IMG/VR virus record: IMGVR_UViG_3300027736_000274
Location: 1-22,272 of that record
Length of the DNA: 22,272 nucleotides
From: a virus
Direction: 5' to 3' (one strand)
In this document: piece by piece, positions 6,821-22,251 of the stretch
How the letters are laid out: every line of letters begins with the position of its first letter
How positions within the stretch are numbered: position 1 is the first letter of the stretch
The notes under the pieces: model-generated
The model's database searches: none
What the model saw: the letters and a program-made list of their open reading frames with translations, nothing else
Told to the model about the DNA's origin: nothing
Translations under genes and position numbers: made by a program

Positions 6821-6899
6821 ATCTCCGGTTAATCCTGAAAAATTCCGGTTCCGTAAATTCCGTGCATTCCGTGGGCCATCATCTCCAGTCTCTTTGACA
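6821..6899 (+). repeat. Degenerate copy of dispersed repeat family A
   Basis: The 185-base gap after the glycosyltransferases holds CTCCGGTTA and AAAAATTCCGGTT fragments that recur at 9462-9497. It also holds CTCCAGTCTCTTTGACA (6883-6899), identical over 17 bases to 9530-9546. The TTGACA here has no start codon at 13 or 16 bases, so this copy looks like a relic junction. No gene is seen in the gap before 7006. Confidence 0.55.
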
Positions 6900-7445: not shown

Positions 7446-7450
7446 ATCAA

Positions 7451-7488
7451 TCTCCGTTTACTCCGCTATCTCCTGTTCAAAATTCTGG
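7451..7488 (+). repeat. Dispersed repeat family A, copy 1
   Basis: This copy opens TCTCCGTTTACTCCG and continues TATCTCCTGTTCAAAA. It matches 9498-9535 closely and matches, without gaps at 31 of 38 positions, bases 14887-14924 inside the tail-fibre gene. It is followed by GTCTTTGACA and the next start. Confidence 0.8.
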
Positions 7489-7495
7489 ACTGTCT

Positions 7496-7501
7496 TTGAC
7501 A
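7496..7501 (+). promoter_or_regulatory. TTGACA start-associated motif, 16 bases before ATG 7518
   Basis: TTGACA directly follows repeat A and lies 16 bases before ATG 7518, with its TGA in frame. Confidence 0.4.
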
Positions 7502-7517
7502 AAGGCTTCTTCCCCAT

Positions 7518-8144
7518 ATGGCCACACGTTTCGCAGAATCCGTCAGCATCTCCGGCAACCTTCAGGTGGACGGCTCCCTCAATTCCCGCCCGCGCTCTGA
7601 ACTGATCCAAGACAACTTCGCCATCTACGGCATCCCGTTCTCCAATCTCCGCATCTGGGATGCGTTTCAAACTGGCATCAGCACCGCCGCCAGCGACGAC
7701 CTCGGCCTCTCCACCGGCGGCACATGGGGCACGAACAACCCCTACATTTCCGCTGGCGATCTCAAAGCCGCCGGTGCCACCACTCGCCGCACGCGTTTTC
7801 TGTTTACGCTCCCGCCCGAATACGTCGATGGTGAATCCGTGCGCATCGTCGCCACGGCTGGCATGGTCACCACTGTTGCCGACACGAGCTGTACCGTGGA
7901 CTTTGAAGTCTATCTCTGCGCCAAAACCACTCTCGCCAGCGGCTCCGATCTCGTCACCACCTCAGCCACGACGATCAACAGCACCTCCTTCGCGGCGAAA
8001 AACTTCGATCTCACCTCCGCCGGTCTTTCGCCCGGTGACATGCTCGACATCCGCATCAGCATCGCCTGCACCGATGCAGCCACCGTCACCGCTGTCATCC
8101 CCGCCATCGCGCATCTCGCGCTCGCGCTGGATATCAAAGGATAA
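7518..8144 (+). CDS. Structural protein, probable virion decoration/fibre-like subunit
   Basis: The protein has 208 residues, is rich in Thr/Ala/Ser, and appears all beta. It has an N-terminal arm (MATRFAESVSISGNLQVDG) and a body with strands such as TRRTRFLFTLPPEYVDGESV and ADTSCTVDFEVYL. I recall similar proteins from phage regions of Verrucomicrobiota and Planctomycetota, where they are unnamed structural proteins; I cannot check this. The fold pattern would suit a jelly-roll or head-fibre/decoration subunit. It lies between neck-type genes, is preceded by repeat A plus TTGACA, and ends three bases before the next gene. A surface-exposed protein here could be a target of the glycosyltransferases, but nothing in the sequence shows that. 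Confidence 0.55.
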   Translation: MATRFAESVSISGNLQVDGSLNSRPRSELIQDNFAIYGIPFSNLRIWDAFQTGISTAASDDLGLSTGGTWGTNNPYISAGDLKAAGATTRRTRFLFTLPPEYVDGESVRIVATAGMVTTVADTSCTVDFEVYLCAKTTLASGSDLVTTSATTINSTSFAAKNFDLTSAGLSPGDMLDIRISIACTDAATVTAVIPAIAHLALALDIKG

Positions 8145-8993: not shown

Positions 8994-9017
8994 CTTCTGC
9001 CTACTGTCTCCTTCTTT

Positions 9018-9461
9018 ATGCCCGACTACACCCCTCTCCCTCACAAGCTCGAAGCCGCCTTCATCGCTTACCTATCCAGCATCCTCACCAGCATGGGGCT
9101 CACCGGTTTGCAGGTCATCTCAGCGCATCAATCCGCCGCCAATCTCGCCACACCCCGCCTCGTGGTCGAATGCGCCGGCACCACACCGCGCATGCTCGCG
9201 CTCCCTGGCTGGATGGATTGCGACATGTCCATTCATTACATCACGCAGGACGGCAACCAAACCGCCGAACAGCACAAAACCACCGTTGGCACCATCCTTT
9301 CATGGCTGCACGACATTGCCGTCGTGCAGTCCGCGCTCGATGCCAATGACGACCTCTCCATCCTCCTCTACCAGTGGCAGTCCGCCCAGCTCACTGAATC
9401 CGCCGACGACGGCACCCGCGCCACCGAAATGCGCTTCACCCTCATCGCCGCCGGTGCTTAA
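9018..9461 (+). CDS. Probable tail terminator protein
   Basis: The protein has 147 residues. It begins with an amphipathic helix (LPHKLEAAFIAYLSSILTSM) and then a beta-strand/helix alternation including RLVVECAG, MSIHYITQDGN and RATEMRFTLIAAG. That is the general pattern of tail terminator proteins (lambda gpU and relatives), which are 130-150 residues and lie just before the tail tube gene, as here. The ATG is preceded by a C/T-rich string resembling repeat family B (CTTCTGCCTACTGTCTCC) and no Shine-Dalgarno sequence. The assignment rests on synteny, length and secondary-structure pattern. Confidence 0.5.
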   Translation: MPDYTPLPHKLEAAFIAYLSSILTSMGLTGLQVISAHQSAANLATPRLVVECAGTTPRMLALPGWMDCDMSIHYITQDGNQTAEQHKTTVGTILSWLHDIAVVQSALDANDDLSILLYQWQSAQLTESADDGTRATEMRFTLIAAGA

Positions 9462-9497: not shown

Positions 9498-9535
9498 TCT
9501 CCGTTCCCTCCGTTATCTCCTGTTCAAAACTCCAG
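9498..9535 (+). repeat. Dispersed repeat family A, copy 2
   Basis: The 25 bases at 9499-9523 (CTCCGTTCCCTCCG, then TTATCTCCTGT) recur exactly, inverted, at 22217-22241. The copy lies in the 101-base gap between the tail terminator and tube genes and runs into CTCTTTGACA. Confidence 0.85.
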
Positions 9536-9540
9536 TCTCT

Positions 9541-9546
9541 TTGACA
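9541..9546 (+). promoter_or_regulatory. TTGACA start-associated motif, 16 bases before ATG 9563
   Basis: TTGACA follows repeat A and lies 16 bases before ATG 9563, with its TGA in frame. Confidence 0.4.
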
Positions 9547-9562
9547 CCCCCACCACACTATT

Positions 9563-9949
9563 ATGGCAGCGACAATCCTCGGCACTAGCAAACCCGTCTT
9601 CGGCGTCACCGTTCAAAGCGGCATGATCCTCCGCACCGTCACGGATGCGTATTCCACGGAAAAGAAAGTCATCGTCAACGAAGCCGGTGAAAAAGGCGGC
9701 ATCGTTCTTTACGGCGACCAGCGCGAGATCACCCTCGAAGCCCTCGTGCCTTCGACTTCGGCCTTCTCGACACGCATGGCCGCTGCGTTCACGCTCTCGC
9801 AGACCACTACCGATTTCTATCGTTCCTCCGCCGGTGCCGGTTTTGGTGACATCATTCTGACCGGTGCCACGCAGACCTCCAGCAACGAAGCGGAACAAAC
9901 GTTCTCGCTCACGTTCTGGGCCTCGCCGTTCTTTGACTTCGCTGCCTAA
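9563..9949 (+). CDS. Probable major tail tube protein
   Basis: The 128-residue protein is beta-rich and low in charge. GDQREITLEALVPSTSAF is followed by an alternating C-terminal part (EQTFSLTFWASPFFDF), consistent with the beta-sandwich of a tail tube subunit. It sits between the tail-terminator-like gene and the chaperone/tape-measure block, where the tube gene lies in siphophages. A long inverted repeat follows it, a common arrangement behind highly expressed virion genes. It is on the short side for tube proteins (usually 130-250). Identity is inferred from position and composition; no diagnostic motif is seen. Confidence 0.5.
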   Translation: MAATILGTSKPVFGVTVQSGMILRTVTDAYSTEKKVIVNEAGEKGGIVLYGDQREITLEALVPSTSAFSTRMAAAFTLSQTTTDFYRSSAGAGFGDIILTGATQTSSNEAEQTFSLTFWASPFFDFAA

Positions 9950-10033: not shown

Positions 10034-10453
10034 ATGTCCCAAGAAAACCTCACCCACGCCGCCCGTCCTCACTCCCTGAACGACACGCGGCTTTTTGCTG
10101 CCCTGGTCACCCTCGGCATTCAGCCCGCCGAAGGCCCCCAAATCTACATCGGCGAAACCCGCGACGGCACCCCTAAACAAACGTGGTATCTCGAACGCGA
10201 AAGCATCTGCGGCAAATACAAGACCAACGAGATGATCGCCGCATGGAACGATCCGCAGTGGCACGAGGCCAATCCCGAGCACCCCCTCGCCTACGTCAAG
10301 TGCGCGTTCATGAACATGGTGAGTTGCATCGACCACATCAAGCAAAACATGCCTATGCAAGTCATCCGTGGCCGTGGCGGCAAGCTCGGCCTCATCGGCC
10401 CGCACGATTCCAAAAAAGCCACCGAGCACATTCTCAAGACGCTCAAACGCTAA
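10034..10453 (+). CDS. Tail-region protein of unknown function
   Basis: The 139-residue protein is mixed alpha/beta. It starts SQENLTHAARPHSLNDTRLFAALVTLG and ends with a helix (DSKKATEHILKTLKR). The middle part, QTWYLERESICGKYKTNEMIAAW, looks like a compact globular core. I recognise no family. Position between the tube candidate and the G/GT chaperone pair suggests a tail assembly or minor tail protein. No Shine-Dalgarno sequence is seen before ATG 10034; the leader contains the 12-bp hairpin. Codon use (C-ending codons) is like the rest of the late genes, which supports it being a real gene. Confidence 0.6.
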   Translation: MSQENLTHAARPHSLNDTRLFAALVTLGIQPAEGPQIYIGETRDGTPKQTWYLERESICGKYKTNEMIAAWNDPQWHEANPEHPLAYVKCAFMNMVSCIDHIKQNMPMQVIRGRGGKLGLIGPHDSKKATEHILKTLKR

Positions 10454-10458
10454 AGTCG

Positions 10459-10485
10459 CTTTTGCCTCCTGCCTTTTGCCTTCAG
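10459..10485 (+). repeat. Dispersed repeat family B (TTTTGCCTCCTGCC type)
   Basis: CTTTTGCCTCCTGCC followed by TTTTGCCTTCAG fills the gap between two genes. It is built from the same TGCCTYY units as 11371-11449, 16811-16850 and, inverted, 22252-22272. Confidence 0.75.
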
Positions 10486-10486
10486 C

Positions 10487-10732
10487 ATGCACACCCGCCG
10501 CGATGAATGCTTCACCATCATCACCGATTATGATCTCCACGATCACCAATTCACCGCCGCGCATTACCACGGCAACTCCCACATCGACCTAACTCTCCCA
10601 TTGTCCCGCCATGACCGCCGCACCATCCACCTCGGCGGGCATCAATGCCGCCAGTGGGGTCTAAAGCTCCTCGAATTCGCCGAAACCTTCCGCCAATCCA
10701 CTCCCGCACCGAACCACGACTTCCAAATCTGA
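10487..10732 (+). CDS. Histidine-rich small protein of unknown function
   Basis: The protein has 81 residues and about ten histidines (for example TDYDLHDHQFTAAHYHGNSH). Its second half, DLTLPLSRHDRRTIHLGGHQ, reads like an ordinary folded domain. The reading frame starts one base after a copy of repeat family B and has the late-gene codon style. No family is recognised. His-rich segments may bind metal, but no defined motif is visible. It lies just before the chaperone pair, so a tail-assembly function is possible. I am only moderately sure it is expressed. Confidence 0.5.
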   Translation: MHTRRDECFTIITDYDLHDHQFTAAHYHGNSHIDLTLPLSRHDRRTIHLGGHQCRQWGLKLLEFAETFRQSTPAPNHDFQI

Positions 10733-11132: not shown

Positions 11133-11323
11133 GCCACGGGCACGATCCCTACGTCGTCGGCTGGCAGTGGCCCTTGAAACTGCTGCTGCGATTCCTGCAT
11201 GCCGAGCTACGCAAGCAAGGCGTGCGCACCTACAAACTCACCGGACGCACCCCCGTCACACAAGCCACCCTCGATGCCCACCTCTCCGCCTTCCGTAGCG
11301 ATCTTGATGAGTGGGAGCTGTGA
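11075..11323 (+). CDS. -1 frame extension of the tail assembly chaperone (T part of G-T fusion)
   Basis: If ribosomes slip at 11069-11075, the chaperone (100 residues to RPL) is extended by 82 residues, giving a 182-residue fusion. The extension begins GNDDSDEPDFNTTLIWLGVS and continues with aromatic and basic helical sequence (VVGWQWPLKLLLRFLHAELR). This is plainly better coding sequence than the zero-frame tail. A GTG at 11129 could start an independent 64-residue protein, but that would discard the conserved-looking DEPDFNTTLIWL segment, and no start motif precedes it. The fusion form of such chaperones usually contacts the tube protein. The fusion is inferred from sequence only. Confidence 0.65.
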   Translation, partial: GNDDSDEPDFNTTLIWLGVSHGHDPYVVGWQWPLKLLLRFLHAELRKQGVRTYKLTGRTPVTQATLDAHLSAFRSDLDEWEL

Positions 11324-11334
11324 GGGAGGGAAAG

Positions 11335-11449
11335 GCAAAAGGCATTAGGCAACAGGCAAAAACTCAGACTCTTGCCTCCTGCCTCCTGCCTGCTGCCTTC
11401 TGCCTTCCCTCTTTTGCCTTGTGCCTCCTGCCTCTTGCCTTCTCTCCCA
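11335..11449 (+). repeat. Repeat family B array with inverted half
   Basis: The gap before the tape measure holds G/A-rich units (AGGCAAAAGGCATTAGGCAA, from 11335). These are followed by a run of C/T-rich units (TTGCCTCCTGCC and variants, 11372-11447). GGCAACAGGCAA (11348-11359) can pair with TTGCCTCCTGCC (11372-11383) at 10 of 12 positions, so the RNA could form a long imperfect hairpin between chaperone and tape measure. Confidence 0.75.
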
Positions 11450-11452
11450 CCT

Positions 11453-11458
11453 TTGACA
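11453..11458 (+). promoter_or_regulatory. TTGACA start-associated motif, 13 bases before ATG 11472
   Basis: TTGACA lies directly after repeat B and 13 bases before the tape-measure start, with its TGA in frame. Confidence 0.4.
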
Positions 11459-11471
11459 AACCCACCCCATC

Positions 11472-12623
11472 ATGGCTAAAGCAGTCGTAGAAATCGACGC
11501 GTCCACCGCTGGCTTTGACGCGGCGGTGGCATCGCTGCCTGAGAAAATGAACCGCGCCGGGGCGCAGGTAAGCAAAGCGGGCAATTCCTTCACACGGAAT
11601 CTCGGCGGTGCCGCCATGCAGTTTCAGGACATTGCCGTCCAGCTTCAATCCGGCACGAAGGCCAGCATTGTTTTTGCACAGCAAGGATCACAATTACTCT
11701 CTTCTTTTGGTGCGGGCGGTGCGATTGCAGGCGGTGTGATTGCGATAGGGGGAGCATTTTACACCATGGGCGAAAATGCCCGGAAGGCTTTTGATGATGC
11801 CAAGATTTCTGCTGATGCGTTTGATGCAGAGTTGAAACAGATCAGTGCCGGAACCATCCCTGAAATGTTGGCTGGCATGAGTAAATTGGACGAACGCGTC
11901 CAGGGTTGGACATCTGAACTCGGCAATCTGAATGGTGCTTTTTCATTTGGTGCCAATATCGCGGATGTCTTTGGTGGCCCATCTGTTGAAGAACGAATGA
12001 GCTTAGCCGGTGAACAGTTGAATGCTCTTGGCACGAAACGAGTTGAATTGTTAAACCAAATTCTTTCACTTTCTGATCAAGATGCATCCATTGCAAAGCT
12101 GCGGGCGTCTGGCGAGAAGGAATTAGCTAACGAGAAGGAGCGTGAACTCAAACTGGCCCGTGAAATCGCTAAGATCAATGCCCTACCAATCCCGCGTTTT
12201 GCACGTGATCAATTAACCGCCAATGCCACTGCGATCTCAGAATCTGGGAAACTGAAACCGCAATCTCAGAGCATGTTTGAGCGTGCCGCCGGTGGCGTCT
12301 CATCCTTCCTCGGCTCCAATACCGCTCCCTTCAAATCCGCGCTCGCTGCCAAGCTCAACGACGAAGCCAGCAAGTCAGCCTCGAACACCACCTCCCTCGC
12401 GCGCGCTGCCTTCTCCCCGCTCCGTGGGGATGCCGACATCTCCACCGGTCGCGGTCGCAGTGTGAACCCCCTCGTGCAAAATGCCTCCAAGCAGATCGCC
12501 GAGATGACGAAGCAAACGAACCTGCTCAAACGGCAGGCTGATGCCCTCGGTGACTCCAACAAATACCTCGGCAGCATCGAGAAAATCGTCAGCAAATTCA
12601 AATCTACTCCCATTTATAACTGA
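11472..12623 (+). CDS. Short tail tape-measure protein
   Basis: The 383-residue protein has the N-terminal signature of lambda H-type tape measures: a start of alternating helix (DASTAGFDAAVASLPEKMNR), then MQFQDIAVQLQSGTKASIVF and AQQGSQLLSSFGAGGAIAGG, leading into a hydrophobic glycine-rich helix (about residues 75-100). Helical sequence follows to the C-terminus. Tape measures set tail length at roughly 1.5 angstrom per residue, so this one predicts a short tail of about 55-60 nm if unprocessed. The middle (about 11690-12260) uses more AT-rich codons than either end, suggesting recombination within the gene. The stop overlaps the next start by one base (TGATG). Confidence 0.82.
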   Translation: MAKAVVEIDASTAGFDAAVASLPEKMNRAGAQVSKAGNSFTRNLGGAAMQFQDIAVQLQSGTKASIVFAQQGSQLLSSFGAGGAIAGGVIAIGGAFYTMGENARKAFDDAKISADAFDAELKQISAGTIPEMLAGMSKLDERVQGWTSELGNLNGAFSFGANIADVFGGPSVEERMSLAGEQLNALGTKRVELLNQILSLSDQDASIAKLRASGEKELANEKERELKLAREIAKINALPIPRFARDQLTANATAISESGKLKPQSQSMFERAAGGVSSFLGSNTAPFKSALAAKLNDEASKSASNTTSLARAAFSPLRGDADISTGRGRSVNPLVQNASKQIAEMTKQTNLLKRQADALGDSNKYLGSIEKIVSKFKSTPIYN

Positions 12624-13390
12624 TGGCCTCCACGAAGCTCGGCGTCATTGAAACGATCATACCTGGTGCGGAAGTGCAGATCACCCGCACCGGCGTCACT
12701 TACACGCTGCCGAAGTCCATGGCCACGGCGGTCGCGCTCGATCCCACGCGGCATCCGCCCATCGGCACGGTTCTTCAAATCATGGGACACACGACCACCC
12801 TGGAGTCTTATACAATTGTCGATACCGAAGGTGCCGTTGCGACGGTCAATTACAACTACGTCGGCACCAACGCAACCACCGGAGAAACAAACATTGGTGA
12901 CAACACGCCCCCGCTTCCAGCCTTCAATTTTTCATCGCAACCGGCTTCACGCTATGATCTTGATGTTACTACGGAAGCGGTGAGCCTCCTGCGCCATTAC
13001 CGGTTTAGTAGTATCACTGCTGCTGATCGAAACATTCTCGGCAGGATGATTCAGGAGGGTGTGCTTGATGCTAATGGGGCTGATCTTAGCCAATCACTGT
13101 CTTTAGACCCGAAGACGCTAGAAATGTCAGCGTTGATCAAGGGTGGCACGGTCTCATATGAAGCTCCAGCCTTAATTTGGCGTAAAACCACATTCAATAC
13201 AACATGGTCAAATGTCCTGCTTCCAGGCTTCATCATTGAACCTCCTGGCCCATGCCCTAACATTAGCGGCAACTGGATTCTGGCTGGATTCTCTGGCACC
13301 GGTTACGAAGACTTCGCCGAATCCCTCACGGCGACCTATAAGTCATCCATTCGAGGTGAGGAATGGAACAAAACACTTTACGGACGATGA
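12623..13390 (+). CDS. Distal tail / tail-tip protein, unknown family
   Basis: The 255-residue protein directly follows the tape measure, where the distal tail protein (Dit or gpM-like) lies in siphophages. It starts with short beta strands (AEVQITRTGVTYTLPKSMAT; VLQIMGHTTTLESYTIVDTE). It contains a helical block (VSLLRHYRFSSITAADRNIL) and ends with small-residue and aromatic sequence (ISGNWILAGFSGTGYEDFAE). I recognise no named family. Bases about 12960-13240 are richer in A/T at third positions than the start and end of the gene, another sign of mosaicism. Its role in the tail tip is inferred from order only. Confidence 0.55.
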   Translation: MASTKLGVIETIIPGAEVQITRTGVTYTLPKSMATAVALDPTRHPPIGTVLQIMGHTTTLESYTIVDTEGAVATVNYNYVGTNATTGETNIGDNTPPLPAFNFSSQPASRYDLDVTTEAVSLLRHYRFSSITAADRNILGRMIQEGVLDANGADLSQSLSLDPKTLEMSALIKGGTVSYEAPALIWRKTTFNTTWSNVLLPGFIIEPPGPCPNISGNWILAGFSGTGYEDFAESLTATYKSSIRGEEWNKTLYGR

Positions 13391-13941
13391 TCGACACGCT
13401 GCCCATGCCACGTGTCGGTGACACGATCAAAGCCGAGCACATCGCCGCCATCAGCCGTGCGCTGAAGAAACGCACGCCGCGCAATTCGCCCACGGTCAAG
13501 GTGCATGAGACAGCGGACGGTTTTTATTTAGACGCTGCTCCCGGTGGTGGTGCATCCTCAAGTTTTCGTGGGGCGTGGTATCCCACCAAGGTAAATGATG
13601 AACTCATCAATCTGACCCCCGGCAGCATCACGGATGGCGTCACCACGCGCATGCCTACGGTGACAAACATCGTCGTCAGCGCCACGGCATCTCAGTATAT
13701 TCATCTGGTATGCGAACTCACGCCAACGGTTGTGGACGGCTACGTCACCGGCGGCACCATTGATTCCGCCACCGTGCAGGCGTTTGGTTCTTTGCAGACC
13801 AACACGAACACCACAGGCTATATTCTGCTCTGCACATGGCAGGCTGGGGTGCTGGGTGCCCGTTACAAATACTTCAGCTTCCAGGCTGAGCTAGGTAACC
13901 GTAACACCGGCGAGACGGTCTTCCGCGTCTGGGACCAATGA
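13387..13941 (+). CDS. Tail-tip/baseplate protein, unknown family
   Basis: With ATG 13387, which forms ATGA with the preceding stop, the protein has 184 residues. An ATG at 13363 has a Shine-Dalgarno-like GAGGTGAGG before it and would add eight residues. I prefer 13387 because ATGA coupling is the rule here, but the choice is open. The N-terminus (PMPRVGDTIKAEHIAAISRA) is a small helical region, then KVHETADGFYLDAAPGGGAS leads to a beta-rich C-terminal domain (TVTNIVVSATASQYIHLVCE; YILLCTWQ). The layout, a short helical anchor plus a beta domain, suits a baseplate or tail-attached protein. Confidence 0.55.
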   Translation: MIDTLPMPRVGDTIKAEHIAAISRALKKRTPRNSPTVKVHETADGFYLDAAPGGGASSSFRGAWYPTKVNDELINLTPGSITDGVTTRMPTVTNIVVSATASQYIHLVCELTPTVVDGYVTGGTIDSATVQAFGSLQTNTNTTGYILLCTWQAGVLGARYKYFSFQAELGNRNTGETVFRVWDQ

Positions 13942-14333
13942 CCGTTCCAACTCCCAACGCAGCGAATCTTTACCGCACCCGTGATGCCAGCGATTCTAGC
14001 CCCAGGCAGGCCAACACACTGCATCAGTCTATGTATGTCCGTCAGGTCTTTGATGGCAGCACATGGGAATACAGCGATGACACACAAGTCATCATGGGTG
14101 AAACCTATGCCACAAATGGGGCGACTTGGATTGATTTTGTGCCAATGGATGAATTTGCCTCGCCATGCACTATTGAACTAAGGGGTGCAAAAATGCCTAT
14201 TAAACTGATCATCACGGATGACCTCGCCGCCGAGACTGAATACGAGATGGGAAACTCAAACACGGCGCAGGTCATTGACCCCCCGCCAATGGATCGCACC
14301 TATACAAGTGCTAGGATTATCCGCCGCTTTTGA
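13938..14333 (+). CDS. Tail-region protein of unknown function
   Basis: The 131-residue protein starts in an ATGA overlap (13938). It begins with a polar segment (NLYRTRDASDSSPRQANTLH). A beta-rich domain follows (VRQVFDGSTWEYSDDTQVIM; FVPMDEFASPCTIELRGAKM), and it ends YTSARIIRRF. No family is recognised. It is coupled to the preceding gene and ends inside the TTTTGACA motif that precedes the next gene, so it belongs to the same tail-tip cassette. A small adaptor between tail tip and fibre is one possibility, from position only. Confidence 0.5.
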   Translation: MTVPTPNAANLYRTRDASDSSPRQANTLHQSMYVRQVFDGSTWEYSDDTQVIMGETYATNGATWIDFVPMDEFASPCTIELRGAKMPIKLIITDDLAAETEYEMGNSNTAQVIDPPPMDRTYTSARIIRRF

Positions 14334-14335
14334 CA
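14330..14335 (+). promoter_or_regulatory. TTGACA start-associated motif, 13 bases before GTG 14349
   Basis: The TGA inside this TTGACA is also the stop codon of the preceding gene (14331-14333). It lies 13 bases before GTG 14349. Confidence 0.4.
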
Positions 14336-14348
14336 CTGTCGCTCGTTC

Positions 14349-14885
14349 GTGGAAGCCACGATCTACGTCAACACCAGCACCAAGAAAGCCACGAGCACAC
14401 TGGCTGGCACCGTTCCGCCAAGTATCCCCGTGGTGCTGCAAACGCACCTGAAGCTAACGACGTATTTCTTCGCCACCGGTGCATCTCCCGCACTGCTCTC
14501 CGGTGCCACGTTTCGCGTCGCGCTTAAAGACAAACTGACACCCTCCGGCTCCGTGCTCGCCCTGCTGAGTGCCGCCACGGCGACGGGTGCCACCTACTAC
14601 GAATTCGAGTGGACAAGTGTGGATTCCGCCGCTCTACGCACCCTCATCGGTGACGCTGAAACCTGCGAAGCCGTCCTCGACATCGAGTGGACGATTGCCA
14701 CGACCATCGAGCGTGTGCAGATCCCGGTGGTTATTACCAACTCATGGCTGCGCACCGCTGACTCCGCCCCTGACTTTATCGCCTTCGCCGCATCGATCAC
14801 CTCGCTCGGTTATCTCCGCCTCGTGAATAGCAGCGGCACCGTCTATCACCTCGGCCTCAACACCGGCGAACCTCCCTCCACATGA
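14349..14885 (+). CDS. Probable baseplate upper protein / fibre adaptor (BppU-like pattern)
   Basis: The protein has 178 residues from GTG 14349; the only support for this start is the TTGACA motif at the standard distance and the onset of good coding sequence. Beta-strand pairs around ATFRVALKDKLTPSGSVLAL and YYEFEWTSVDSAALRTLIGD recall N-terminal domains of BppU-type proteins. These attach receptor-binding fibres to the baseplate and specify default linear material properties in their 'kV..G' strands. The protein ends HLGLNTGEPPST and overlaps the tail-fibre gene by ATGA (14882), which supports a functional pair. The family call is a pattern impression and unsure. Confidence 0.5.
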   Translation: MEATIYVNTSTKKATSTLAGTVPPSIPVVLQTHLKLTTYFFATGASPALLSGATFRVALKDKLTPSGSVLALLSAATATGATYYEFEWTSVDSAALRTLIGDAETCEAVLDIEWTIATTIERVQIPVVITNSWLRTADSAPDFIAFAASITSLGYLRLVNSSGTVYHLGLNTGEPPST

Positions 14886-16786
14886 GTCTCCGTTTCCTCC
14901 GTTCTCTCCTGTTCTTGTTTCTGGCGTCCTCAGCGTCCGCGCAAACTATCGAACAATACGAACTCCGCAAACGCACCAGCACCGGCTTCACCGCCTACGG
15001 CATCACCTTATCTAATGGTGATGTCCTTGGCTTAACGAGCAGCGTGCCCGCCGCACGTCCAGTGACATCCGGTGCACTCGCTGCCAATGCTGGCAAGATC
15101 GTTGAATTCTCCACCGCAGGAACCATTCATGCGACTGCCATCAACGCGATGTCTGAAGGCTCCGCCGCGCCTTATACACAAGCCGCACCGACCGCTTTCT
15201 ACTTCGTGCCGTCCAACGGTATCACCGGCACGCTCGCCACTGCGACGCTTACCACGAACCGCACCTGGACGCTGCCAGATACCACCGGCACCCTCATCAC
15301 CACCGGCGACACCGGCACAGTGACGAGCACCATGCTCGCAGGCAGCATCGCCAACAGTAAGCTCGCCACCGATCCACTCAACGCCAGCAACCTCACCAGC
15401 GGCACCGTGCCCACCGCCCGCCTCGGCAGCGGCACCGCGAACAGCACCACCTATCTTCGCGGAGACAACACTTGGCAGACCATTTCCAGTGGCGGCGTCA
15501 CCAGCATCACTGGCACCACCAACGAGATCGCCGTCACCGGCACCACCACTCCCACGCTCTCGCTGCCATCCGCGCTCACCTTCACCGGCAAGACGATCAC
15601 CGGCGGCACGTTCAGCAGCCCCACACTCACCACGCCAGCCCTCGGCACCCCGAGCGCCATCGTGCTCACCAATGCCACAGGCGCACCGACTGGCATCAGC
15701 CTCACGAAGGCACAACTCAACACCATCGTCAGCGATGATGATCCCGCCTATGTGGGCACCGCGAATACCTTTTCCGCTGCGCAGACGATCTCCGTCGCAG
15801 GTGCTAACTCCACACCACCGCTTTATTTAACGGGTGCACTCAATGTCGGTGGATCGGCGACGACGACATTCCCTCACATATTCCACCAACCCACGGGTGC
15901 AACAGCAGCCACGACATGGAGCGCTGGGGCGAACGCTGGCACGGTGTTCGGAGCGAATGAAGCAACGGGGTTTAGTGGCAATTTCTTTGACGGCAAGGTG
16001 GCAGGAGTCACCACCTGCAAAATCATCGGCTCCACGGGTGCCATGAGCGTTTACACTTACAACGCCATCAACTGGGCGGTCTATGACAGCGTCGGCGGCA
16101 CGCTCCGCTCCTATGAACAAGGGGGTCGTTGGTTTGCGAATGACGGCTTTACCACGACGGGCAGCAGCCTCTCAATGCAGGATACCTACTCTGGAATCCG
16201 CCTGCGCAATGGTTTCTGGATCGGCTGGTCGGCAGACACGACCTATTATGGCACCAATGATTTGATTCTTGGCCGCGACGCGGCAGCGACGCTACAACTG
16301 GGCGCAGACCACGCCACCACGGCAACCAACCAACGCATTAAAGCCCACGATGTGACAACCGGCACCGGGGCCAGTCTCACTCTCAGCGGTGGCACGGGTA
16401 GCGTCGCAGGTGGTTCGGTCATCCTCGCCACCAGCGCCACCACGGGTGCACCCGTCGCTCATTTAACCGTTAGTGCTAGCGGTGGCATCACGCTCGGCAG
16501 CGGTGGCGCTGCCATCACCAAAGTCCTCACCGCCACTGCCACCCTCGACTTCGGCGACACCGCCCCGCAGGCCACCACTGACCTCACCATCACCGTCACA
16601 GGAGCGTCAGATGGCGACATCGTTGTCATGGGTATCGTCAACGCGTCACAGCCTGCTGGTGCGTGTGATTTTCGTGCATGGGTAAGCGCAGCCAACACCG
16701 TCACCGTTCGCTTCTCCAACAACAACCTCGTCGGCAACATCAATCCTGCCTCCGGCACCTTCCGCGCCACCATCATCCAGCATTAA
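14882..16786 (+). CDS. Tail fibre protein with an N-terminal signal peptide
   Basis: The 634-residue protein is rich in Thr/Ser/Gly/Ala. It has a shaft typical of phage fibres: TWTLPDTTGTLITTGDTG, then ASNLTSGTVPTARLGSG and STTYLRGDNTWQTISSGG, around residues 130-205. A central beta domain follows (about 320-450). The C-terminal domain (about 545-634, with TATLDFGDTAP and FRAWVSAANTVTVRFSNN) is one widespread in fibres. It should bind the host surface. Oddly, residues 1-20 form a clear Sec signal peptide: Arg-Leu-Phe-rich core, ASA before Gln21. Virion fibres are normally assembled in the cytoplasm. The next in-frame Met is near residue 69, so no better start exists, and ATG 14882 sits in an ATGA overlap. 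The signal-coding bases match repeat family A (see findings). Confidence 0.82.
   Translation: MSLRFLRSLLFLFLASSASAQTIEQYELRKRTSTGFTAYGITLSNGDVLGLTSSVPAARPVTSGALAANAGKIVEFSTAGTIHATAINAMSEGSAAPYTQAAPTAFYFVPSNGITGTLATATLTTNRTWTLPDTTGTLITTGDTGTVTSTMLAGSIANSKLATDPLNASNLTSGTVPTARLGSGTANSTTYLRGDNTWQTISSGGVTSITGTTNEIAVTGTTTPTLSLPSALTFTGKTITGGTFSSPTLTTPALGTPSAIVLTNATGAPTGISLTKAQLNTIVSDDDPAYVGTANTFSAAQTISVAGANSTPPLYLTGALNVGGSATTTFPHIFHQPTGATAATTWSAGANAGTVFGANEATGFSGNFFDGKVAGVTTCKIIGSTGAMSVYTYNAINWAVYDSVGGTLRSYEQGGRWFANDGFTTTGSSLSMQDTYSGIRLRNGFWIGWSADTTYYGTNDLILGRDAAATLQLGADHATTATNQRIKAHDVTTGTGASLTLSGGTGSVAGGSVILATSATTGAPVAHLTVSASGGITLGSGGAAITKVLTATATLDFGDTAPQATTDLTITVTGASDGDIVVMGIVNASQPAGACDFRAWVSAANTVTVRFSNNNLVGNINPASGTFRATIIQH
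14887..14924 (+). repeat. Repeat family A copy inside the tail-fibre signal peptide
   Basis: The bases coding residues 2-14 of the fibre match 7451-7488 at 31 of 38 positions without gaps. They match 9498-9524 with two mismatches in the first 27. Four mismatches in the 7451 comparison are the AAAA to TTGT change that would otherwise place a lysine-rich break in the hydrophobic core. Confidence 0.72.
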
Positions 16787-16788
16787 TT

Positions 16789-17238
16789 ATGAAACATATC
16801 CTTCTTCTGTCTTTTTCCTTGTGCCACCTGCCTTGTGCATTCTGCCTTGCCGCCGATCCCATCGTCATTGTCACCAGCGCCACCAGCGTCACCGTTGATA
16901 GCACTGATTACGGTAAACCCGCCGATGCCATCGCCAACAATAAACAGCTCGCACCACTGATTCAGTCCGCGCTGGAAAAATACGCCGCAAAGCTCGAAGC
17001 TGACAAAGCCGAAGCCATCGCCGAGCACGGTGCGCTTAAAGGCCGCATCGACTCAACGCTGAAAGGTCTGCTCGAAGCCGAACTCAAGACCGGCGACGGC
17101 CCGCGTGCGCAACTGTTGCGTGATTTGATAGAGCAGGCCGGAAAGTCTGACGCTGAACTTAAGCTGGAAGCAGCTAAAGCCGCCGAGGCCGCCGCCATCA
17201 AAGCCCGCCAAGAAGCCGAAGCCGCCCTTGATAAATAA
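16789..17238 (+). CDS. Exported coiled-coil protein at the head of the lysis cassette
   Basis: The 149-residue protein starts with a Sec signal peptide (MKHILLLSFSLC..., cleavage likely near FCLAA before D). A short beta segment follows (IVIVTSATSVTVDST), then a long charged helix (LEKYAAKLEADKAEAIAEHG; AKAAEAAAIKARQEAEAALD). The heptad-like helix suggests a coiled coil in the periplasm. The start lies three bases after the fibre stop; upstream extension in frame is inside the fibre gene. Neighbours are a membrane coiled-coil protein, a lipoprotein, a holin candidate and the endolysin, so a role in lysis or envelope disruption is likely. It could also be a fibre-associated factor. The signal-coding bases resemble repeat family B. 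Confidence 0.6.
   Translation: MKHILLLSFSLCHLPCAFCLAADPIVIVTSATSVTVDSTDYGKPADAIANNKQLAPLIQSALEKYAAKLEADKAEAIAEHGALKGRIDSTLKGLLEAELKTGDGPRAQLLRDLIEQAGKSDAELKLEAAKAAEAAAIKARQEAEAALDK
16811..16850 (+). repeat. Repeat family B copy inside a signal peptide
   Basis: CTTTTTCCTTGTGCCACCTG (16811-16830) matches CTTTTGCCTTGTGCCTCCTG (11411-11430) at 18 of 20 positions, and 25 of 30 when extended, without gaps. Here it codes part of the signal peptide of the exported coiled-coil protein. Confidence 0.7.
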
Positions 17239-21613: not shown

Positions 21614-21939
21614 AGCTGCACCCTCACCTCTCAGTGCTGGATGAAGCGGCAGCGGCGACGAGTGGAGACCGGCGGCGGGATTATGGGACGGCGACGGCGA
21701 ACCATGAACGTATCGCGGATGGGTGGAACTGGTATCTGAATGCGCGTGCGGTGAAAGATGCGCCGATCTCCTCACTGGATGCGGCGATGATGATGATCGT
21801 GCTGAAGATTGCGCGGTCGGTGCATCGGCCCAAAAGGGACAACTTTGTGGACATCATCGGCTATGCGAAATGCGGGGCGCAGATTGCGGGATTTGAGCCT
21901 GAATTTGAACAGGAGAAAACGGAGGGAATGGAGAGATGA
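21610..21939 (+). CDS. DUF6378-like early protein
   Basis: The 109-residue helical protein has the pattern RRRDYGTATANHERIADGWN followed by MMMIVLKIARSVHRPKRDNF and VDIIGYAKCG. This matches, from memory, the DUF6378 family of phage proteins. The all-helical build with acidic and lysine residues recalls MazG-like nucleotide pyrophosphohydrolases, but the MazG metal motif (ExxE...ExxD) is not clearly present. ATG 21610 forms ATGA with the preceding stop; longer in-frame starts lie inside the previous gene. It overlaps the next gene the same way. A nucleotide-pool or replication role is a guess from family context. Confidence 0.72.
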   Translation: MKLHPHLSVLDEAAAATSGDRRRDYGTATANHERIADGWNWYLNARAVKDAPISSLDAAMMMIVLKIARSVHRPKRDNFVDIIGYAKCGAQIAGFEPEFEQEKTEGMER

Positions 21940-22202: not shown

Positions 22203-22216
22203 TGCCGGAAATTTTT

Positions 22217-22241
22217 ACAGGAGATAACGGAGGGAACGGAG
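22217..22241 (-). repeat. Repeat family A, inverted copy
   Basis: These 25 bases are the exact reverse complement of 9499-9523. This is the only family A copy in the early region and the only one in this orientation. Confidence 0.88.
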
Positions 22242-22251
22242 ATTCAGAGAT

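Follow-up and report, generated by a model that had tools for sequence, protein, structure and literature searches.

Signal peptides evolve fast and tolerate a wide range of sequences, and to our knowledge the source of a new signal peptide is rarely visible. In Yersinia, RU-2 (one of the RU-2/YPAL small mobile repeats) contributes to the signal peptide of YPO1552 (Delihas 2007, PMC2229807, PMC2759123). Rickettsia palindromic elements, as reviewed in PMC2229807 (Ogata et al. 2000), place repeat DNA in frame within genes, and the abundant TAACTGA repeats of Beggiatoaceae, as outlined in PMC4679880, are short direct heptamers in intergenic positions. Phage boundary (linker) sequences, in the account given in PMC3029335, are short and lie at module boundaries. 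In the phages described here repeat DNA is likewise found in frame within genes, one repeat family (B) consists of short direct heptamers like those of Beggiatoaceae, with another unit and in other organisms, and a mosaic joint lies at or beside a repeat slot.

The phage window and its relatives

The window, meaning the whole stretch of DNA that was analysed, is the 22,272-base record IMGVR_UViG_3300027736_000274, in which portal, head protease, major head protein, tape-measure and endolysin genes are present; a scan of the window for tRNA found none. The sole named-phage match of its portal is Akkermansia phage Moulinsart (27% identity), and relatives of its capsid, at 38% identity or less, occur in sampled genomes from the phylum of an Opitutia assembly. 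Together these matches make a host in the Verrucomicrobiota likely. Fibre- and decoration-like proteins of phages do not usually carry signal peptides. Two neighbouring genes of the window carry predicted ones, and searches of PHROGs and Pfam returned no match for either gene.

14882 to 16786, + strand: fibre-like gene (open reading frame); predicted signal peptide MSLRFLRSLLFLFLASSASA, mature start QTIEQYELRKR
16792 to 17238, + strand: coiled-coil-like gene (open reading frame); predicted signal peptide MKHILLLSFSLCHLPCAFCLA, mature start ADPIVIV

Comparisons were made with R1 (IMGVR_UViG_3300009163_002696), R2 (3300032282_003236; L132/L133, reverse strand), which is colinear with the window at ~90% identity, R3 (3300027736_000008) and R4 (3300010885_036151). 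Three relatives at ~70%, P14-P16 (L134, L135 and L137), are without repeat families A and B.

Dispersed repeat families

Family A, of period 9, was scored against the consensus TCTCCGTTNCCTCCGTTATCTCCTGTTC; family B, of period 7, consists of arrays of a heptamer, (TTCTGCC)n; and family E is TTTCGTGTG, of period 9. Read directly from the consensus, the pyrimidine-rich strand of all three has zero stop codons in all frames and gives hydrophobic peptides in most of them: LRSLRYLLF and SVPSVISCS in two frames of A, FVCFVCFV in one frame of E and FCLLPSA from all three frames of B, since 7 cannot be divided by 3. Five A sites and five B sites were found in the window, with one A held by the fibre signal codons and one B by those of the next gene; the reversed sequences of the window, R1 and R2, scanned as a control, gave zero A or B matches.

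6849 to 6874, + strand: possible intergenic family E copy (weak, 75%); similar copy in R2
7451 to 7478, + strand: intergenic family A copy; R2 has family B at this slot
8994 to 9023, + strand: family B array that runs up to the start codon of the open reading frame 9018-9461; array 14 bases longer in R2
9498 to 9525, + strand: intergenic family A copy; R2 has family B at this slot
10453 to 10491, + strand: family B array; at this slot R2 has ~2.4 kb of extra genes between B arrays
11323 to 11364, - strand: family B array in reverse orientation (repeat scan, R2 comparison)
11363 to 11449, + strand: family B array; the R2 array has three more units (21 bases)
14887 to 14914, + strand: family A copy in the fibre signal peptide; 26/27 to the A consensus, reached by 0/3000 shuffles
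16803 to 16857, + strand: family B heptamer array in the coiled-coil signal peptide; 21/24 over 28 bases, codon-order p=0.0013
21907 to 21934, - strand: antisense family A copy that encodes the DUF6378 gene's C-terminal tail; antisense B in R2
22215 to 22242, - strand: antisense family A copy; R2 also has family A

In the window and R1-R4 the majority of repeat copies lie between called genes, and coding copies are restricted to signal peptides and C-terminal tails. As in MITE-like elements, copies are many, dispersed and mostly intergenic, with A and E multi-copy in bacterial genomes. There they often form inverted pairs that can fold into long hairpins and whose arms, separated by 50-120 bases or more, enclose unrelated DNA (for example L012:1290-1500 and genomes G004, G007, G008 and G010). 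Two examples fold into hairpins; in the phages single arms predominate, and B is arranged in tandem. A literature search for families A, B and E by their literal sequence returned no relevant paper. Downstream of the repeats, just ahead of three gene starts (window 7490-7520, 9536-9565 and 11450-11472), lies CTTTGACA, which may be a promoter or leader element.

The gene junctions of P14-P16 hold two other dispersed families, C (a heptamer, AACCCCT/AACTCAT-like) and D (an octamer, TGTCTGAT-like). Both contain TAA and TGA and so have stops on the coding strand, and at the P14-P16 fibre slot they precede ordinary signals. These few cases suggest that open repeats become coding and that stop-bearing repeats do not.

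Signal peptides of the fibre gene

A sequence-only reading of the window had proposed that dispersed repeats became the signal peptides of the two neighbouring genes. Its fibre alignments were reproduced: 14887-14924 matches the intergenic A copy at 7451-7488 at 31 of 38 positions in an ungapped alignment, the AAAA of intergenic copies being TTGT at 14915-14918, and 14887-14914 differs from 9498-9525 by two mismatches, over 28 bases. The repeat does occupy early signal codons, but the limits of 14887-14924 are the third base of codon 2 and the first of codon 15, which differs slightly from the residues 2-14 that had been stated. The fibre N-termini are as follows, with a slash at the presumed cleavage site.

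Window: MSLRFLRSLLFLFLASSASA/QTIEQ (family A)
R1: MRSRLCLLPSASCLLALAFCLLPCAFLSA/QTIGQ (family B; own ATG within a TTATGC unit)
R3 and R4: MTRLFLSCLFVCFVGSLSA/QTIGQ (family E)
R2: MIRLLLILLLVSLSPTLRVLG/QTIGQ (ordinary)
P14: MMSRLLLSLLLLSTFAAA/QTVGQ (ordinary)
P15: MIRHLLPLLLLSTFAAA/QTVGQ (ordinary)
P16: MIRFFLPLLLLSTFAAA/QTVGQ (ordinary)

The mature start (QTI.QYELRKR in summary form) is kept across the window, R1-R4 and P14-P16, so that in eight phages an A, B, E or ordinary predicted signal stands ahead of the same mature fibre start. The R3/R4 signal matches, over all 27 bases and with one inserted base, a variant of family E that occurs verbatim in bacterial genome G004. The earlier reading had weighed the possibility that related phages carry the same signal peptide; close relatives instead have other repeats at the same place. 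Since the distant relatives without A and B have ordinary signals with the same cleavage site, the repeats appear to have replaced existing signals, not to have created them.

Signal peptides of the coiled-coil and decoration-like genes

The match of 16811-16840 to the intergenic B string at 11411-11440, put at 25 of 30 in the earlier reading, was confirmed. Homologues of the coiled-coil gene are found in R1, R2 and P14-P16, with the following N-termini.

Window: MKHILLLSFSLCHLPCAFCLA/AD (family B)
R1: MKTLISVLFVLSCSISGLFA/QTS (family A, in a frame that differs from that of the window fibre)
R2: MKTLFISFAFCLLPLASGLA/QTS (family B)
P16: MKHIILILTAFALAITALHA/SD (ordinary)
P14 and P15: ordinary signals

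In these predicted signals the hydrophobic core is swapped, and the basic start and cleavage region are retained. A third gene, coding for a decoration-like protein, was compared at L018:6285-6860, L019, L382 and L383; in R1 its predicted signal peptide is coded by family B. The L019 relative has an ordinary predicted signal and an A copy ~14 bases 5' of the ATG, and the relatives in L382/L383 (49%) have no signal at the start (MAALSIT).

Comparison with shuffled and control signals

The match of the window fibre signal to A (26/27) was reached by 0/3000 codon-order and 0/3000 synonymous shuffles. For the window coiled-coil signal against B (21/24), codon-order shuffles gave p=0.0013 (0.13%) and synonymous shuffles p 0.18, the latter being weak because the peptide is the repeat's own peptide. 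With gapped local alignment against codon-order shuffles, p<0.0005 was obtained for both genes. Six of the 14 scored phage signals matched a family: these two, the R1 fibre (B, 23/24), the R1 coiled-coil (A, 23/27), the R2 coiled-coil (B, 23/24) and the R1 decoration-like gene (B, 23/24). The remaining signals, which served as controls from relatives, scored 13-17/27 for A and 13-15/24 for B. In 90 rule-predicted signals from 1.5 Mb of an Opitutia genome that bears family E, no score exceeded 17 in any family, and their shuffles reached at most 19. The outcome that the sequence-only reading had named as counting against its idea, shuffled signals scoring as well as the real ones, was thus not obtained in the codon-order and gapped-alignment tests; the 90 Opitutia signals likewise spoke against chance resemblance, and no repeat-coded signal was found among them.

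A rule-based scan of called genes in the window and R1-R4 found a basic start, hydrophobic core and small-x-small site in the fibre and coiled-coil proteins of the window, R1 and R2 and in the R3/R4 fibre. Of the 10 signals in the window, R1, R2 and R3 that are clearly of signal-peptidase-I type, 7 are repeat-coded, where R3 and R4 are counted once, the membrane anchor, the lipoprotein and low-scoring calls are excluded, the boundary between clear and low-scoring signals is our own judgement, and the seven cases come from a few phages that share ancestry.

Repeats at gene starts in bacterial and other viral genomes

In 376 genomes from one phylum, ATGA followed by family E was found at 44 sense versus ~86 antisense positions among the places listed. 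Thirty sense loci were read, of which 7 had a frame of at least 80 amino acids through the repeat and 1 had a weak signal, and longer DNA read at eleven selected places gave no convincing case. General recruitment in bacterial genomes was rejected: in those sampled, E showed no excess on the sense strand behind ATGA, and no repeat-coded signal was convincing. No general habit is therefore claimed. The earlier idea of repeats as ready-made signal peptides is thus partly supported in these phages, whose signal codons are repeat DNA, and finds no support as a general bacterial habit in the genomes sampled. Among the matches listed, wider viral contigs with A or B include few sense N-terminal cases outside this lineage.

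Exchange at gene junctions

Compared with R2, the window has A exchanged for B in the intergenic slots near 7449-7451 and 9498, and unit numbers differ at 8994 and 11363. The tail after the DUF6378 domain contains antisense A in the window (21634-21939) and antisense B in R2 (oriented 26422-26751). At the window slot 10453-10491, R2 (oriented 12757-15301) has ~2.4 kb of extra genes with B arrays on both sides and ~175 duplicated bases, as if the genes had been inserted by recombination at B.

Trees of the genes on either side of the fibre slot conflict: for the upstream gene the window and R2 form a group (support 98/99), whereas for the mature fibre the window falls with R1 (support 100/100). 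A crossover therefore lies in or beside the intervening slot of 63-129 bases, and the recombination joint, placed only to the slot and its flanks, is at or beside the fibre signal-peptide slot. By phage, this slot holds A, B, E or no repeat, and the partners are without a common repeat. The earlier picture of repeats landing at a gene start is modified accordingly: the slot is a gene junction that recombines and that also swaps A and B elsewhere, and the signals replaced there were probably pre-existing.

Discussion

The signal codons derive from repeats, the slots have been swapped and the mature N-termini are conserved. We infer that the repeat-coded N-termini would act as working Sec signals and that the route was recombination or template switching at C/T-rich tracts. 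In the reading that we consider reasonably probable from the sequences, gene junctions of this phage lineage would be points of exchange at which short dispersed repeats are gained, lost and swapped. Where a repeat takes the place of the first codons of a gene whose product bears a signal, the frame would stay open and the repeat would supply the hydrophobic core; the signal peptide would survive the replacement because the repeats are without stops and hydrophobic in most frames. Three genes show candidate events of this kind: the fibre gene has A in the window, B in R1 and E in R3/R4; the coiled-coil gene has B in the window and in R2 but A in R1; and the decoration-like gene of R1 has B.

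It is rather unlikely that the repeats fill junctions neutrally, or provide patches of homology at which modules are exchanged, with the signal-like peptide an unselected by-product. The majority of copies between genes, the C-terminal tail in which A and B are likewise swapped, the joint near the fibre slot and the R2 cargo between B arrays would all fit this explanation, but a basic start, core and cleavage-like site are present in every relative at the fibre and coiled-coil loci, whatever the sequence, and the coiled-coil swaps occur only in the core, as expected under selection for a signal.

A stronger version of the favoured reading, in which the gene-start slots are a dedicated exchange site where host-type repeats are repeatedly installed as interchangeable cores, and open, hydrophobic families are kept for that purpose, is given little credence. 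If it were true, export tags would evolve by repeat swapping instead of point mutation.

Still less probable is a role of the repeats at the level of DNA or RNA, such as that of C-rich leaders which stay unstructured and influence termination or translation, with coding incidental. Many copies do lie immediately 5' of genes on the coding strand, and P14-P16 carry other G-poor repeats (C and D) at the same positions; yet copies occur in both orientations and also in C-terminal tails. Miscalled starts, with translation beginning 3' of the repeats, are very improbable: the starts were taken from open reading frames only, but the next ATG in the window fibre frame is already inside the conserved region, the chosen fibre start overlaps the preceding stop codon, and a signal-like N-terminus is present in all relatives, repeat or not. 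Chance similarity of any C/T-rich hydrophobic signal to C/T-rich repeats was rejected as barely credible, for although CTC, CTT and TTC codons are abundant in signal cores, the repeat-coded signals stand clearly apart from shuffles, the 14 phage signals and the 90 Opitutia signals.

Replacement of signal-peptide starts by repeat swapping at gene junctions would make these orthologous phage genes a natural swap experiment, in which one mature start is preceded by cores from three unrelated repeat families or by ordinary sequence. This suggests that repeats can serve as ready-made export tags; dispersed repeats as a reservoir of export signals become testable, and signal-peptide turnover is linked to phage module exchange.

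A repeat contribution to a signal peptide was already known from RU-2 and YPO1552, at one locus and with one family; new here are three families alternating at orthologous slots ahead of conserved mature starts. RU-2/YPAL elements are ~170-bp, whereas the phages carry short arms or arrays of heptamers. Rickettsia palindromic elements, as far as the review describes them, occur at many protein positions, whereas the coding copies in these phages occur only in signal peptides and C-terminal tails. A linker sequence would be the same in both partners of a joint, whereas the partners here carry different repeats there.
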